Shown one piece after another: positions 10,831 through 18,058 of a stretch of 49,250 nucleotides of DNA. The number at the start of each line of letters is the position of its first letter. Position 1 is the first letter of the stretch. Source of the stretch: a bacterium HR28 (GTDB lineage Bacteria > Chloroflexota > Chloroflexia > Thermomicrobiales > Thermomicrobiaceae); assembly GCA_002898255.1 (NCBI GenBank), contig BEIE01000006.1:1-49250 (forward strand), given 5' to 3'. The translations under genes were made by a program, and so were the position numbers. The notes beneath the pieces are model-generated. The model saw nothing but the letters and a program-made list of their open reading frames with translations, made no database searches and was not told where the DNA came from.

Positions 10831-11057
10831 CTTGCTCGTGCAGGATAGGAGAACAGCAGCGACATGATACTGAAACCGAGGACAGCGGGTGCGAACGCCG
10901 TCCCGCCTGGAGACTCGATAGAGGCTGGACAGAAGCAATGATCGGGATGCGGGTGCATCACGTGAGTCCCCGGTCAAGCGCTTGGGTGTTGGACAAAATC
11001 TTCGGGAACATCGCAAGTTCGAGGTGCTATCTCGACCTCTGTCGTGATGCGGACAAC

Positions 11058-11087
11058 TTGCGCGTCGGCTCCACTTTCCGCTATCGT
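11058..11087 (+). promoter_or_regulatory. Candidate promoter for the DinB-like gene and possibly the respiratory cluster
   Basis: TTGCGC (11058-11063), an 18-base spacer and TATCGT (11082-11087), placing the transcript start about 37 bases before the ATG at 11131. Confidence 0.4.
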
Positions 11088-11130
11088 AGACAGCGATCGT
11101 CGGAATCCGGGCGGTGGTGGAGGGGCGTCG

Positions 11131-11607
11131 ATGGCCGATCGAGACGTGATTGAAGCGCTGATCGCGACATACCGGGAGCTCAACCAACGCTTCCGGCCCG
11201 TGCTCGCGGCAATGAACGCGGGATCGGGTTCGATCGACGACCCGTCGAGTCCGCTCGGGATCCTCTACCGGCTTCGCAACCGAGAGTTGAATGCTTCGCA
11301 GGCGATCAAGGAGATGCTGCGGGGTGGTGAGCGAACGATCCTCGATGACGAGGGGGAACCGCTCCTGACTGTTCATCAAACAGCCTTGGGATTGACTCCG
11401 ACGGTGCTGCTGAGCCAGTTTGGGACGGCGCGCGAGGCGACCCTCGCCATGGTGCGTGATCTTCCTGATCAGGTGTGGCAGGAGGAGTTCGAGACGCCCC
11501 GCGGGCGGATGACACTGCGGGCCTATCTGGAGACGCTGATCGCGCGGGACCGCGAAGCGATTCGGGCGCTCGAAGAGCGATTGGGACAACCTGTCCCGAA
11601 GAGCTAG
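11131..11607 (+). CDS. DinB-like four-helix protein (hypothetical)
   Basis: A 158-residue, soluble, mostly helical protein. The second half (LSQFGTAREATLAMVRDLP, then an Arg-Asp-Arg-Glu-rich last helix) resembles the DinB/maleylpyruvate isomerase-like helical bundle. The metal-binding histidine triad of true DinB-fold enzymes is not evident: His occurs once, in LTVHQTALG. The start at 11131 has GGAGGGG upstream; an open frame from 11044 is not credible. It ends 42 bases before the CtaG fusion gene and may be in the same transcript. Function unknown. Confidence 0.6.
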   Translation: MADRDVIEALIATYRELNQRFRPVLAAMNAGSGSIDDPSSPLGILYRLRNRELNASQAIKEMLRGGERTILDDEGEPLLTVHQTALGLTPTVLLSQFGTAREATLAMVRDLPDQVWQEEFETPRGRMTLRAYLETLIARDREAIRALEERLGQPVPKS

Positions 11608-11649: not shown

Positions 11650-13005
11650 ATGCTGGCGCCGCTCCTTCCGCTCTTACACGCCACCGTCACATCGACCGAC
11701 CTTGTCCGAGCCTGGCACCTCGATCCGTCGGTTACGGTTTTTCTCCTGAGTCTGGCAGTTGCGTATGCGGCTGCTCGTAGGGGAGCACAGCGTGCAGGGC
11801 GCCCCGTCCCCTCACGCTGGCGTGCAATCGCCTTCCTGGCCAGTCTGGAAGTGGTCGCGGTTGCTCTCATGGGTCCCCCCGAGCACGGGAATACGGTGCG
11901 GTTTAGCGTGCACATGGTGCAGCATACGCTCCTGATGTTGGTCGCGGCACCGCTACTCGCCCTGGGGCAACCAGTCCGCACATTCCTGCGTGGCTTGCCC
12001 GCTGGGACACTACGTTGGCTCGCCCAGCAACGGGGTCTTGTGGCACTGTTCGATGTGCTCACACATCCTGTGACTGTCTTCCTCGCAGCGACTGGGCCCT
12101 TTGCACTCTGGCACTACCCTCCGCTCTACGATGCAGCTGTGCGCGTCCCCTTCCTTCATGAGGTCGAGCACGTGAGCTTTCTGGGAGGCGCGTTGCTCTT
12201 CTGGTCGGTGCTGCTGGATCCGTTCCCACGGCATCGCCGGTTTTCTCCGATGACCGCAATGCTTCTTGTGTTCGCGACGTGGATGGCGACGGATCTGGTG
12301 TGTGCGACCGTGACCCTCGCGCCACGCCCCCTCTACGGTGTGTACGCCGAGGCGGCCGCATTGTGGGGGATCGACCCGCTGGCTGACCAGCGGCTTGGTG
12401 GCGCAATTATGTGGGTGGGTGGTGGAGGACTCTATGCGGTAGTACTGCTCGCGCTCCTTCTTCGGGCAGCGCGACCCAACGCGCTGCGCCGTGTCTCGGG
12501 AGCTCCGAACCTCAGGCGGGTGTCCCTTTCGGTCGCGACTATGGCCCTGTTTTTGGTCCCGCTTGCCTTCATAGGCTTCGGAGTTATTGCACCAGTTATG
12601 GCACGGAGCGCAGATAGCATCCGCTGGCAACAAGAGGATCCGCAACGCTTCGAGCAGCGGGTCGCGACGTTCGTGGCGGCGTATCGGGTTGGGGAGCGCA
12701 ACGGACTCCCGATCGTCGCTCCATCAGGTGGGGAGGCGTATCTTGTCGGGCGAGCTGATGGCTGGTACCCGATACTGAAGCTCCGACGTGGCGCCGAGTA
12801 TCGACTGTATATCTCGGCCAGTGATGTGACGCACGGGCTTCTCGTCGATTTCGGCGAACGACGGCTGGCCGTTCGGGTGGTTCCGGGAACAGTCGCGATC
12901 ATCACTATTCGACCCGAACGAACGGGGGAATACCGGCTCCTCTGCACGGAACTCTGTGGCCCGGCGTTCCGAGAGATGACTGGTCTCTTGATTGTGAGCG
13001 AGTAA
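11650..13005 (+). CDS. CtaG-like oxidase assembly protein fused to a subunit II (CuA) domain lacking one ligand
   Basis: A 451-residue fusion. Residues about 1-290 are a seven-helix CtaG (caa3-type oxidase assembly factor) domain with the HMVQHTLLMLVAAPLLALG signature and later histidine motifs LWHYPP and LHEVEHV. A further helix (about 305-325) anchors an external cupredoxin domain (about 330-451) clearly paralogous to the subunit II encoded next (shared pattern from DPxxF to the C-terminus). CuA ligands H395, C432, E434, C436 and M443 are present, but the second histidine is Phe440. The start at 11650 has GAGGAG seven bases upstream; a GTG at 11611 is the alternative. CtaG proteins deliver copper to the CuB site; the fused domain may be a copper-transfer module. 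It leads the heme-copper cluster. Confidence 0.85.
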   Translation: MLAPLLPLLHATVTSTDLVRAWHLDPSVTVFLLSLAVAYAAARRGAQRAGRPVPSRWRAIAFLASLEVVAVALMGPPEHGNTVRFSVHMVQHTLLMLVAAPLLALGQPVRTFLRGLPAGTLRWLAQQRGLVALFDVLTHPVTVFLAATGPFALWHYPPLYDAAVRVPFLHEVEHVSFLGGALLFWSVLLDPFPRHRRFSPMTAMLLVFATWMATDLVCATVTLAPRPLYGVYAEAAALWGIDPLADQRLGGAIMWVGGGGLYAVVLLALLLRAARPNALRRVSGAPNLRRVSLSVATMALFLVPLAFIGFGVIAPVMARSADSIRWQQEDPQRFEQRVATFVAAYRVGERNGLPIVAPSGGEAYLVGRADGWYPILKLRRGAEYRLYISASDVTHGLLVDFGERRLAVRVVPGTVAIITIRPERTGEYRLLCTELCGPAFREMTGLLIVSE

Positions 13006-13825: not shown

Positions 13826-14377
13826 ATGGCGAGCCGAGTCAGCGCGCTGGCCAAACCGCGCGGTGTCTGGTGGGAGGGGTTAGGCCGTGACGAGCGGCTC
13901 TGGGTGTGGTTGACGGTCATCTGGGGCATTGCGATGTTCCTGATGATCGCGTTCGTCTGGCCGCTTATCGGGGAAGAACAAAACCGCCTTCACGCGTATC
14001 GGGTCGATCCGGCGACGTTTGCCTCACAGGCGGAGGCGTTCATCCAGCAATACCAGATTGGTCAGCGTGACGGGGTGCCAGTGGTCGCACCGCCGCCGGG
14101 TGGTGATGTGTATCTGGATGCGCGCGCGTTTGCGTGGCAACCGGTGATCCAACTGAAGCGCGGCGAGACCTACCGGTTCTTGATCAGTTCGCGCGATGTA
14201 CAACATGGCTTCTCGCTGGTGATGCCGCCACACAGCATCAACGTGCAGGTTTTGCCGGGGTATGTCACGGTGCTGGAACTGACGCCCGAAAAGACGGGAG
14301 AGTTTCCGCTGATCTGCAATGAGTACTGCGGTCTGGGCCACCATCTCATGATCGGCCGGATCATCGTGACGGAGTGA
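13826..14377 (+). CDS. Heme-copper enzyme subunit II with intact CuA site (ba3-type)
   Basis: A 183-residue membrane-anchored cupredoxin. One N-terminal helix (about 25-48) is followed by the external domain that accepts electrons from cytochrome c or a blue copper protein. All CuA ligands are present: H127 (DVQHGF), C164, E166, C168, H172 and M175 in CNEYCGLGHHLM. The short length and single helix are typical of B-family (ba3) subunit II. The start at 13826 has GGGAGGTG directly upstream; an earlier ATG at 13790 would overlap the small peptide gene. It is followed nine bases later by subunit I. Confidence 0.93.
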   Translation: MASRVSALAKPRGVWWEGLGRDERLWVWLTVIWGIAMFLMIAFVWPLIGEEQNRLHAYRVDPATFASQAEAFIQQYQIGQRDGVPVVAPPPGGDVYLDARAFAWQPVIQLKRGETYRFLISSRDVQHGFSLVMPPHSINVQVLPGYVTVLELTPEKTGEFPLICNEYCGLGHHLMIGRIIVTE

Positions 14378-14386
14378 GGTGGGACG

Positions 14387-16120
14387 ATGGCGACAGCAGC
14401 AACGATGCGACGGTGCGAGATAACGGGTCTCTCGGTTGATCGCTCGGCCGAGCGGCTCATCATGCTGAACGCAGTGACGGCGGTGGTCTATCTCACGATT
14501 GGGGGTGTACTGGCCTTGCTTATCGCCTTGACGCGGTGGCAGGCTGTGCATCTCCTCGCCCCGCAACGGTTCTACGAGTTCGTGTCAACTCATGGAATGG
14601 TGATGTTAATCTTCTGGATCCTCTTCTTCGAGGTTGCGGGATTGATCTTTGCGAGTACCGTTCTCCTAAGTACACGAATGGTCATTCCGTGGCTGAGCTG
14701 GATTGCCTACCTGATGATGCTCGGGGGCTCGGTCATCGCCACCGTGCTGATGCTGAGCGGCCAGGCGACGGTGATGTTCACCTCTTACCCGCCACTCCGG
14801 GCTGAGACGCCATGGTATTACGCGGCGGTGCTCGTTTTCGCGGTGGGAGCTATCCTGGCGGTCGTGCACTTCTTTGTCAACATCGTTGCGGCACGCTTGC
14901 GCGGCGATGTTGGGAGCTTGCCGCTCTTTACGTTCGCGTTGATGGGGGCGGCGATCATCGCACTCTGGTCGTTGCTCTCCGGAGCGCTCGCCTTGTTCCC
15001 GGTGTTCCTCTGGGCGCTTGGAGTCATTCCGGAAGTCGATCCAGGGATCTACCGATTGCTGTACTGGGGGCTCGGCCATGGCGCGCAGCAGGTGAATCTT
15101 GCCGCTATGGTCGGCGTGTGGTACGGGCTGGCGAGCCTGACGACCGGTGCGCGGCCATTGAACGAGGGGTTGAGCCGGATCGCTATTGTGCTTTACGTGC
15201 TCTTCATCAACATGGGAGCGATGCACCACCTGCTGGTCGATCCGGGTTTGGGAACCTGGGTGAAGAACGTAAATGCGAGCTACTTCATGTACGCGGCGGT
15301 AATGGGCAGTCTCATTCATGCTTTCAGTATTCCAGCCTCGATGGAGCTGGCCCTGCGCGAACGAGGGTATCGCCGTGGGCTTTTCGAGTGGCTACGCCGA
15401 GCGCCGTGGGGTGAGCCGGGGTTTGCGGCGCTTGTCGTGAGCATGATTCTCTTTGGGCTCTTAGGCGGGATCAGCGGAGTGATCATTGGCGGGCCGCAAG
15501 TGAACATGATTTCGCATAATACGTTACTTGTTCCAGCTCACTTCCATATGACGGTCGTCGCGGGGACAACGTTGGCGTTCATGGGGATTGCGTACTACCT
15601 TGTTCCACTCATCTTCCAGCGTCAGCTCCTGTTCCGGCGGCTGGCGCAGTGGCAGCCATACGTCTATGGCCTCGGCATGCTGATCTTTGGCATCGGGATG
15701 GGATTGGCCGGGCATTGGGGCGTTCCGCGGCGGCACTGGGACATCACCTTCTCGACTGCACCGGTGCTTGGTGTGAACTTGCAAGAACTGCGGCCCGAGA
15801 TTGCGGTGTTCCTCGCGATGATGGGTATCGGGGGGATCATTGCGGTTATCGGCGGGGCGATGTTCGTCGCGGTCGCAGTGGCGACCGTCTTTGTGGGACA
15901 GCGTACAGCGCGGCCAGCGGTGGGCCGAATCGTGCCTGAGGCGTTCAGCCCCTATCCAGCCATTGCCGGTGGGAGTGGAGAACCGGCCGCTGCGGCTGCA
16001 CACCGAACCTTCGAGGTGCCTGGCACGTTGGTCATCTCGGTCGTGTTCTTGATCCTCTTTATCTTCTTGTATGGTTTCTCGTGGTTTGAGTTGAGCCGCG
16101 TGCCGTGGAAGATCGGGTGA
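14387..16120 (+). CDS. B-family heme-copper oxidoreductase subunit I lacking the active-site tyrosine
   Basis: A 577-residue, about 13-helix catalytic subunit, similar along its length to the Thermus ba3 type (MHHLLVDPG, NTLLVPAHFHMTV, LAGHWGVPRR). Metal ligands: H69 and H387 for the low-spin heme, H385 for the high-spin heme, H231, H280 and H281 for CuB. Oxidases have H-x3-Y in helix VI with a cross-linked Tyr; here the motif is GHGAQQ, so the Tyr position is Gln235. The cbb3 alternative position, six residues before the HH pair, is Ile274. In cNOR the H+4 residue is Glu. The enzyme may therefore reduce NO rather than O2, an inference. CuA-bearing subunit II lies upstream, heme A genes downstream. 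Confidence 0.88.
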   Translation: MATAATMRRCEITGLSVDRSAERLIMLNAVTAVVYLTIGGVLALLIALTRWQAVHLLAPQRFYEFVSTHGMVMLIFWILFFEVAGLIFASTVLLSTRMVIPWLSWIAYLMMLGGSVIATVLMLSGQATVMFTSYPPLRAETPWYYAAVLVFAVGAILAVVHFFVNIVAARLRGDVGSLPLFTFALMGAAIIALWSLLSGALALFPVFLWALGVIPEVDPGIYRLLYWGLGHGAQQVNLAAMVGVWYGLASLTTGARPLNEGLSRIAIVLYVLFINMGAMHHLLVDPGLGTWVKNVNASYFMYAAVMGSLIHAFSIPASMELALRERGYRRGLFEWLRRAPWGEPGFAALVVSMILFGLLGGISGVIIGGPQVNMISHNTLLVPAHFHMTVVAGTTLAFMGIAYYLVPLIFQRQLLFRRLAQWQPYVYGLGMLIFGIGMGLAGHWGVPRRHWDITFSTAPVLGVNLQELRPEIAVFLAMMGIGGIIAVIGGAMFVAVAVATVFVGQRTARPAVGRIVPEAFSPYPAIAGGSGEPAAAAAHRTFEVPGTLVISVVFLILFIFLYGFSWFELSRVPWKIG

Positions 16121-16218
16121 TCCCTGACACCACTCGGCGTCTTCATCGGTTACGCTGGTTGTAGTAGATTAGCGGCGAGCGGCGTGTGTCGGGTGGCAAC
16201 GCATTCTCGGGGGCAGCG

Positions 16219-18039
16219 ATGCACAGCGCAGTGGGAGAGGGGAGCCAGCGAATACGTTGGCTCACGCTGGCGGTGGTGATCGCGGGGTATCTCTTGATCG
16301 TCGTGGGTGGGACGGTACGAGTTACCGGGGCCGGGCTCGGTTGTGGGCCAGAGTGGCCACTGTGCAATGGGCAAGTGATCCCCGGATGGGATCTCCTCGC
16401 GTGGATTGAGTATGTGCACCGGCTGATTGCACTCGGAGTAATCCTCCTCACCGGAGCAGTCGCGGTAGCCGGCTGGCGCCTCCGAACCGCAGACCCATGG
16501 CTACGGCGGTTGCCGCTCGTCGCGGCGGGGCTGGTGGTCATCCAGGCGCTGCTAGGCGCGGTGACTGTCTGGACGCATCTGGAAGCGGCGATTGTCGCAC
16601 TGCATCTGGGCGTGGCGTTGAGCTACCTCGCGGTCGCGGTCATTTTGGCTTTCCGAGCGTGGTGGCCGGAGCTCGCTCGCCGCGCGGTGCGTTCGCCAGT
16701 CCGATCGTGGATCTTCACCTCGATCGGTGCTGTCTTCGTGCTGATGCTTAGCGGAGCCTATACCGCCAAGCGGGGTGCTGGCTTCGCGTGCCCGGAATGG
16801 CCTTTCTGTGGTGGCTTTTGGTTTCCGACCGGTTGGACCAACGTGGATGTGCATCTGACACATCGTCTGATCGCACTGGTCGCTGTCTTGCTGGTCCTGG
16901 TACTGGCGTGGCAAGTGCGCCGTCTGCGCAGTGATGCGCCGTGGGTGGTCGGTCTCTCGCTGGCTGCTGCCGCACTGATGGTGGCGCAAGTCTTTGTGGG
17001 GGCAGCAAACATCTGGTTCCGGCTGCATCCGGCGGTGAGTGTGGCGCACCTGGCAGTAGCGACGGTCATCTGGGTGTTCTTAGTGTTGACAGCGCTGGTC
17101 GATCGAGCGACACCACTGGCGGAAGTGGTACCTGCCACGACGCGAACAGCACGTGGCGTACAGTCGGGTCGCCCCCTTAGTGAAGTCCTGCGTGACTACC
17201 TAGTCCTCACCAAGCCAGGTGTCATGGTCTTACTCTTGCTCACCACGCTCTGCGCCATGCTGGTCGCGGCACAGGGGGTGCCAGCCCTCGGCACACTGTT
17301 CTGGGCGCTCATCGGCGGAGCGCTTGCCTCGGGCGGAGCTGGGGCGATCAATCACTATGTCGATCGAGACATCGATGCGATCATGACGCGGACGCGGGGG
17401 CGACCGTTGCCAAGTGGTCGGCTGGCCCCGGAGTTCGCGCTGATCTTTGGTGTGACCCTGAGCGTCCTGGCTGTCTATGTCCTCACCGCTTTCGTGAATC
17501 CGCTGGCGGCGCTCCTCTCACTGGCAGGTAATCTGTTCTATGTCTTTGTCTACTCCGTCTGGCTCAAGCGGAGCACACCGCAGAACATTGTGATTGGCGG
17601 AGCAGCCGGAGCCGTACCGCCGCTGGTCGGCTGGGCAGCGGTGACGGGTCAGGTAGCGCTACCGGCCATCTTGATGTTTCTGCTGGTGTTTGCCTGGACA
17701 CCGCCGCACTTCTGGGCGCTGGCGCTCTACAAGCGCGGTGACTATGCCGCAGCGGGGGTGCCGATGTTGCCAGCAGTTCGTGGCGAAGAAGAGACGCGGC
17801 GGCAGATTCTCTTCTACACAATTGCCATGGTGCTCACAAGCCTGCTCTTCTATCCGCTTGGCGCCCTCGGGCTTCCCTATCTCATCGCTGCAACGGTACT
17901 GGGAGCGCGTTTCCTCTGGCTCGTCGCGCGACTCTACCGCGAACGGAGTGATGCGCTTGCAAAGCGAGTCTTCCTCTACTCGATGCAGTATCTTGGGTTG
18001 CTCTTCGCAGCGATGGTTGTGGATGCTGTCCTGTTCTAA
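16219..18039 (+). CDS. Fused heme A synthase (CtaA) - protoheme IX farnesyltransferase (CtaB)
   Basis: A 606-residue integral membrane fusion covering both heme A steps: farnesylation of heme B to heme O, then oxidation to heme A. Residues about 1-300 are CtaA, an eight-helix duplicated bundle with EYVHR, LHLGVAL, THRLIAL and VAHLAVA heme histidines and two loop Cys pairs (CGPEWPLC and CPEWPFC). Residues about 325-606 are the UbiA-type prenyltransferase CtaB: N378-x3-D382-x3-D386 (NHYVDRDID), RGRPLPSG and VYSVWLKRSTPQNIVIGG. The usual genes are separate. The start at 16219 is preferred over a GTG at 16186. It lies 98 bases after subunit I, supporting heme A or its derivative in that enzyme. 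Confidence 0.93.
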   Translation: MHSAVGEGSQRIRWLTLAVVIAGYLLIVVGGTVRVTGAGLGCGPEWPLCNGQVIPGWDLLAWIEYVHRLIALGVILLTGAVAVAGWRLRTADPWLRRLPLVAAGLVVIQALLGAVTVWTHLEAAIVALHLGVALSYLAVAVILAFRAWWPELARRAVRSPVRSWIFTSIGAVFVLMLSGAYTAKRGAGFACPEWPFCGGFWFPTGWTNVDVHLTHRLIALVAVLLVLVLAWQVRRLRSDAPWVVGLSLAAAALMVAQVFVGAANIWFRLHPAVSVAHLAVATVIWVFLVLTALVDRATPLAEVVPATTRTARGVQSGRPLSEVLRDYLVLTKPGVMVLLLLTTLCAMLVAAQGVPALGTLFWALIGGALASGGAGAINHYVDRDIDAIMTRTRGRPLPSGRLAPEFALIFGVTLSVLAVYVLTAFVNPLAALLSLAGNLFYVFVYSVWLKRSTPQNIVIGGAAGAVPPLVGWAAVTGQVALPAILMFLLVFAWTPPHFWALALYKRGDYAAAGVPMLPAVRGEEETRRQILFYTIAMVLTSLLFYPLGALGLPYLIAATVLGARFLWLVARLYRERSDALAKRVFLYSMQYLGLLFAAMVVDAVLF

Positions 18040-18058
18040 GGGGTGAAGGGCCTTGCGG

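Follow-up and report, generated by a model that had tools for sequence, protein, structure and literature searches.

A CtaG-type protein fused to a subunit II-like CuA domain that has lost one histidine, encoded beside an eNOR-type enzyme

The DNA analysed here is a 49,250-nucleotide stretch (the window) of bacterium HR28, a member of the Thermomicrobiaceae (assembly GCA_002898255.1, contig BEIE01000006.1), and it encodes a single chain in which a CtaG domain continues into a CuA-like copy of subunit II that has Phe440 at the position of the second CuA histidine. The copy, a transmembrane anchor together with its CuA domain, derives from an eNOR-type subunit II and was attached to the end of the neighbouring ctaG gene in the ancestor of the genus; strong divergence and the loss of the second CuA histidine followed, and the copy has since been under purifying selection. 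The joining and the ligand loss probably converted an electron relay to an arm that serves the eNOR-type enzyme by handling copper or by docking. The fusion is tentatively read, with slightly less than even confidence, as an assembly factor for that enzyme, equipped with an extra arm that would dock like subunit II and hold at most one copper. The features concerned are collected in Table 1; no RNA families were found within the window.

Table 1. Features of the fusion gene and of the gene cluster that follows it (window coordinates)
Feature	Position	Strand	Basis
CtaG-subunit II-like fusion gene, 451 aa	11650..13005	+	uninterrupted frame, Pfam, orthologues
Caa3_CtaG half, 7 predicted TM helices	11650..12504	+	Pfam, AlphaFold2, conservation, positive-inside loops
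Eighth TM helix, residues 288-317, matching the TM anchor of subunit II	12511..12600	+	AlphaFold2, structural alignment
CuA-like cupredoxin domain, residues 324-451	12619..13002	+	VIA-align, phmmer to CuA entries, alignment
Small one-TM subunit IIa, 52 aa	13642..13800	+	homologous to T. roseum TRD_RS14910
Subunit II, complete CuA ligand set	13826..14377	+	
Subunit I, eNOR-type, Gln at catalytic Tyr (GHGAQQ)	14387..16120	+	alignment; PMC8756737 Table A4
CtaA-CtaB fusion (heme A synthase-like + heme O synthase), single chain	16186..18039	+	

The fusion gene starts at the ATG at 11650, with a purine-rich GAGGAG shortly before it, and the start, frame and residue numbers given in an earlier sequence-only reading of this DNA, including H395, C432, E434, C436, F440 and M443, are correct. 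That reading had also seen a full CtaG domain in the N-terminal part, which is borne out by a Pfam match to Caa3_CtaG (PF09678) over residues 37-275, covering profile positions 1-236 of 237 (E 5e-58) with 196.7 bits against a gathering cutoff of 27.7. Within this half H88, H92, H155, H170, H174 and D246, the putative metal ligands, are conserved in all 22 CtaG rows compared. The name CtaG, however, covers two unrelated proteins, the CuB chaperone Cox11_CtaG and Caa3_CtaG; the latter is needed for an active caa3 oxidase, with a role at CuB that is tentative and a role at CuA that is also possible (PMC9145763, PMC13344008, PMC8239418). Cox11_CtaG, which has one transmembrane helix and a soluble domain, is absent from the Pfam matches of the fusion, whose architecture is multi-helical, and the term 'CuB chaperone' used in the sequence-only reading is not supported in that wording, as the N-terminal half belongs to Caa3_CtaG and the CuB role of that family is itself tentative (PMC9145763, PMC13344008). 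The score against the NCBIfam model for the Bacillus CtaG equivalog (TIGR02737) is 76.8 bits with a cutoff of 279, placing the protein in the same family but not as the Bacillus equivalog. As with the Bacillus subtilis type of CtaG, it has seven transmembrane helices, the same His and Asp residues on the outer face and a gene near those of a heme-copper enzyme, although the partner in that case is caa3 and here is eNOR-type. The members of the family that have been surveyed possess 6-9 transmembrane helices, typically 7 (PMC8239418), whereas the window protein continues into a whole subunit II module.

Over residues 307-451 the fusion shares 37% identity with the neighbouring subunit II (E 9.5e-31). 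The paralogy claimed earlier from sequence is thus upheld, but its extent, put at 120 residues, was too short, since the last ~160 residues align with the complete neighbouring subunit II including its transmembrane helix. An AlphaFold2 model, for which the input was an alignment of the window and locus proteins, shows seven transmembrane helices, then an eighth (288-317) and, spanning about 324-451, a cupredoxin. Its mean pLDDT is 83, falling below 50 in the loop 437-440 around Phe440. The top matches of the modelled cupredoxin (Foldseek, VIA-align 2) are the subunit II of the Thermus ba3 oxidase and isolated CuA domains, with VIA-align Z values of 15 to 1ehk_B and 14.8 to 2cua, and the structural alignment to 1ehk chain B begins at residue 285. 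With the Thermus subunit II (1ehk chain B, 2cua) the module therefore has in common the fold (Z ~15), the membrane anchor and five of the six ligand residues, and differs from it in the Phe at the second histidine, the N-terminal CtaG and the changed residues around the site. Lys and Arg are most abundant in the longer odd-numbered loops of the fusion (3, 5 and 7), from which the N terminus and the cupredoxin are both predicted to lie outside the membrane, on the side where CuA works.

The module retains H395, C432, E434, C436 and M443, so that a CuA cupredoxin fold is present with five of the six CuA ligand positions filled. In CuA, the histidine after the second cysteine and a backbone carbonyl complete one copper, and the other histidine and the methionine complete the second (PMC11573801, PMC6696091). 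Phe440 stands in place of the histidine on the carbonyl side, hence one copper loses its nitrogen ligand whilst the other keeps a full Cys2-His-Met set, and the normal two-copper relay should not form. The sequence-only reading had named homologues that keep the histidine, or a sequencing error, as findings that would overturn it; Phe occupies the 440-equivalent position in all five fusions found, as against His in every neighbouring subunit II, so neither chance nor a sequencing or assembly error accounts for it, and the loss of one CuA ligand is fixed across the genus. Could the site nevertheless remain a near-normal two-copper CuA, with water or another ligand in place of the lost histidine, and act as a two-copper donor? 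One-histidine CuA states do exist, given that the PDB holds variants of nitrous oxide reductase in which the other CuA histidine (H583) is replaced, and native structures have H583 rotated off the metal (PMC11573801). Such variants concern the other histidine, though, whilst the fusion has lost the one belonging to the carbonyl-bound copper, and Phe is incapable of coordination, which leaves this possibility very improbable.

The retention of the ligands has to be read against the overall conservation of the domain. Thirty-four columns are invariant in 15 subunit IIs, and the fusions retain 20 of these 34; measured against that background, the retention of five of the six ligand columns has P = 0.19, which on its own proves nothing and leaves selection for copper unproven. 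Six of the columns that are invariant in the subunit IIs are fixed differently in all fusions (S390A, Q409R, T421R, N433T, H440F and H441R), and half of these changes fall in the copper loop. The main rival to a copper-holding mimic of subunit II is a docking arm free of copper, a look-alike that positions CtaG on subunit I until the real subunit II arrives and in which the ligands are remnants. The unremarkable P value, the retained fold and membrane anchor, and the new fixed arginines at 409, 421 and 441, suggestive of a reworked contact surface, are all consistent with this idea. Against it, H395, both cysteines, E434 and Met443 are invariant in the five fusions in spite of a divergence of up to 37% between species in this domain, and a purely docking role is considered unlikely, if not negligibly so. 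The two invariant cysteines also bring to mind a thiol-redox arm that, in the manner proposed for Sco/TlpA-type proteins, would maintain the subunit II cysteines in the reduced state that CuA assembly requires (PMC6696091). Yet the fold is that of a CuA cupredoxin and not of a thioredoxin, the keeping of His395 and Met443 would be needless, and Sco is already encoded in the genome, so that this role appears improbable.

The dN/dS of the CuA-like part of the fusion is about 0.1-0.26, compared with 0.14-0.30 for the CtaG part and mostly 0.02-0.05 for the neighbouring subunit II (0.15 for the closest pair). The domain is therefore under purifying selection, weaker than that on the real subunit II, and with the intact frames these values rule out a recent decay or a pseudogene. 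In a phylogenetic tree the fused domains cluster as a single clade with full support and a long stem, nested among Gln-type subunit IIs in a group with support of 97/96. The tree singles out no nearest Gln-type subunit II, and a constraint that joins the fusion domain with the genus's own subunit II is neither favoured nor rejected (AU p 0.35).

The full fusion is found in four genomes of the genus examined (69-100% identity), in which the orthologues of the window gene are 92, 83 and 69% identical to it, and a fifth copy (59%) lies on the megaplasmid of Thermomicrobium roseum DSM 5159, where it is labelled merely as a 'cytochrome c oxidase assembly protein' (RefSeq WP_012642898.1). The upstream gene order is shared with T. 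roseum (hpt, mutM, an alcohol dehydrogenase and a hypothetical), which suggests that the window comes from Thermomicrobium or a very near relative. No further full-length match turned up in 158 genomes of the class or in a sample of 400 from the phylum, nor is there a fusion outside the genus among the best 80 loci in a collection of named genomes. A widespread fusion is thus ruled out for the Chloroflexota genomes searched, in which it is seen in one genus only. The sequence-only reading had proposed a search for the same fusion beside other subunit I genes with Gln in helix VI; outside the genus, ctaG is unfused at such loci and the subunit II is an ordinary one. This holds for other genera of the family, in which ctaG is a separate gene near a Gln-type subunit I and a subunit II whose ligand set is complete, and for more distant Chloroflexota loci (G123, G216 and G271). 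Within the genus, the fusion and the Gln-type subunit I co-occur in the four genomes examined as well as in T. roseum, and a congener that is 90% complete (G018) has neither, the other two congeners being too incomplete to count. Its confinement to one genus means that the fusion is not required for eNOR assembly generally.

The partner enzyme is not a canonical oxidase, although its subunit I gene is annotated as cytochrome oxidase subunit I. In the alignment its motif is GHGAQQ, as opposed to GHPIVY in the ba3-type subunit I that the same genome encodes on a different contig, and the replacement of the catalytic Tyr by Gln recurs in T. roseum and sister genera. A Gln at the position of the crosslinked Tyr in helix VI is the signature of eNOR (PMC8756737 Table A4), a putative nitric oxide reductase that is frequently misannotated as an oxidase and whose subunit II, a cupredoxin, is encoded directly upstream (PMC8756737). 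Judged by these sequence features, both matched here, the enzyme is of the eNOR type and a putative NO reductase; the likeness belongs to the putative client enzyme and not to the fusion. The subunit IIa of T. roseum is listed in PMC3128077. Throughout the family and beyond, ctaG genes adjoin eNOR-type subunits II and I, and in all five genomes a full-ligand subunit II is present in the cluster of the fusion. This last point, the changed histidine in the copper loop and the joining of the domain to an assembly factor in one chain speak against the fused domain being an alternative subunit II that feeds electrons to the enzyme through a mononuclear copper. The model is matched by one-copper cupredoxins too, rusticyanin and nitrosocyanin among them, but an electron-transfer role is assigned only a low probability.

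The preference for an assembly factor rests on several observations taken together. Within the genus, genomes have either both the fusion and the eNOR-type subunit I or neither; the CtaG half is intact with all its putative metal ligands; the cupredoxin fold is kept, with Thermus CuA as its best match; the Phe is fixed in five species at a dN/dS of 0.11-0.26; the six refixed columns lie half in the copper loop; ctaG keeps company with eNOR-type subunits across the family and beyond; and the lost histidine serves, with the carbonyl, one copper, leaving the His and Met of the other. There is also a precedent for a cupredoxin chaperone in CupA of Streptococcus pneumoniae, likewise a membrane-anchored cupredoxin, which serves the cupredoxin-type domain of CopA (PMC7558416); unlike the fusion, CupA has another ligand set, a binuclear Cu(I) site, a copper ATPase as target and no CtaG. 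In the proposed mechanism, the CtaG half would work on the eNOR-type enzyme at the outer face, and the tethered look-alike would dock at the future site of subunit II or meet the copper donors of subunit II. One copper may be held by the ligands that are left, a His, two Cys and a Met, and could then be handed on to either subunit I or subunit II. The most specific form of this proposal, a one-histidine CuA domain that as a CtaG-tethered mimic docks on the eNOR-type subunit I and hands over a single copper, is possible but rather doubtful. Genes for Sco and PCuAC are present in the fusion genomes and in most of those without a fusion, which rules out a replacement of lost copper chaperones; the arm would add to both and replace neither.

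Fusions of CtaG as such are already known. CtiP of Corynebacterium glutamicum, a CopD-Caa3_CtaG protein that is required for an active oxidase (PMC9145763), also combines Caa3_CtaG with a copper-related module, although its extra part consists of N-terminal CopD-like membrane segments and that of the window protein is a C-terminal cupredoxin derived from subunit II. In the literature searched, subscription papers aside, no description was found of a fusion of CtaG with a subunit II module or of a natural CuA without this second histidine, and nothing was found on the biogenesis of eNOR-type enzymes. The fusion ties Caa3_CtaG to the assembly of such an enzyme, and its attachment to a crippled subunit II copy is a small hint that Caa3_CtaG acts toward subunit II, suggesting a place of action near that subunit or its docking face. 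It also offers, as a soluble domain from a thermophile source, a natural one-histidine CuA variant that is genus-wide. If the mimic reading is true, the working site of Caa3_CtaG is directly revealed and a copper chaperone can evolve from its target's own subunit.

Several further genes deserve mention. Just 5' of the fusion lies a conserved gene (11044-11607) with a weak, below-cutoff match to DinB_2/MDMPI_N; it may be co-transcribed with the fusion, and its counterpart is directly upstream of the fusion in G017 and T. roseum too. Between the fusion and subunit IIa, T. roseum (L178 8647-12697) carries two genes that the window lacks at this place, one for a DEAD/DEAH helicase and one hypothetical and coiled-coil-like, so strict co-transcription of fusion and subunit IIa is not conserved. 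A radical SAM gene (TIGR04053) at 18053 follows CtaA-CtaB, with a below-cutoff score to the heme b synthase AhbD. Elsewhere in the same genome a copper nitrite reductase scores above the NCBIfam cutoff (G000:C1:703928-704803), with none in the congeners searched. Finally, the hypoxanthine phosphoribosyltransferase-like gene at 7176-8126 matches a phosphoribosyltransferase family (Pfam) at residues 142-282, whilst its first ~125 residues fall in no Pfam family and, judged by eye, resemble a small domain of nuclease type (TPDFYLP..YVELT); the equivalent place in T. roseum is occupied by a gene of about this length.
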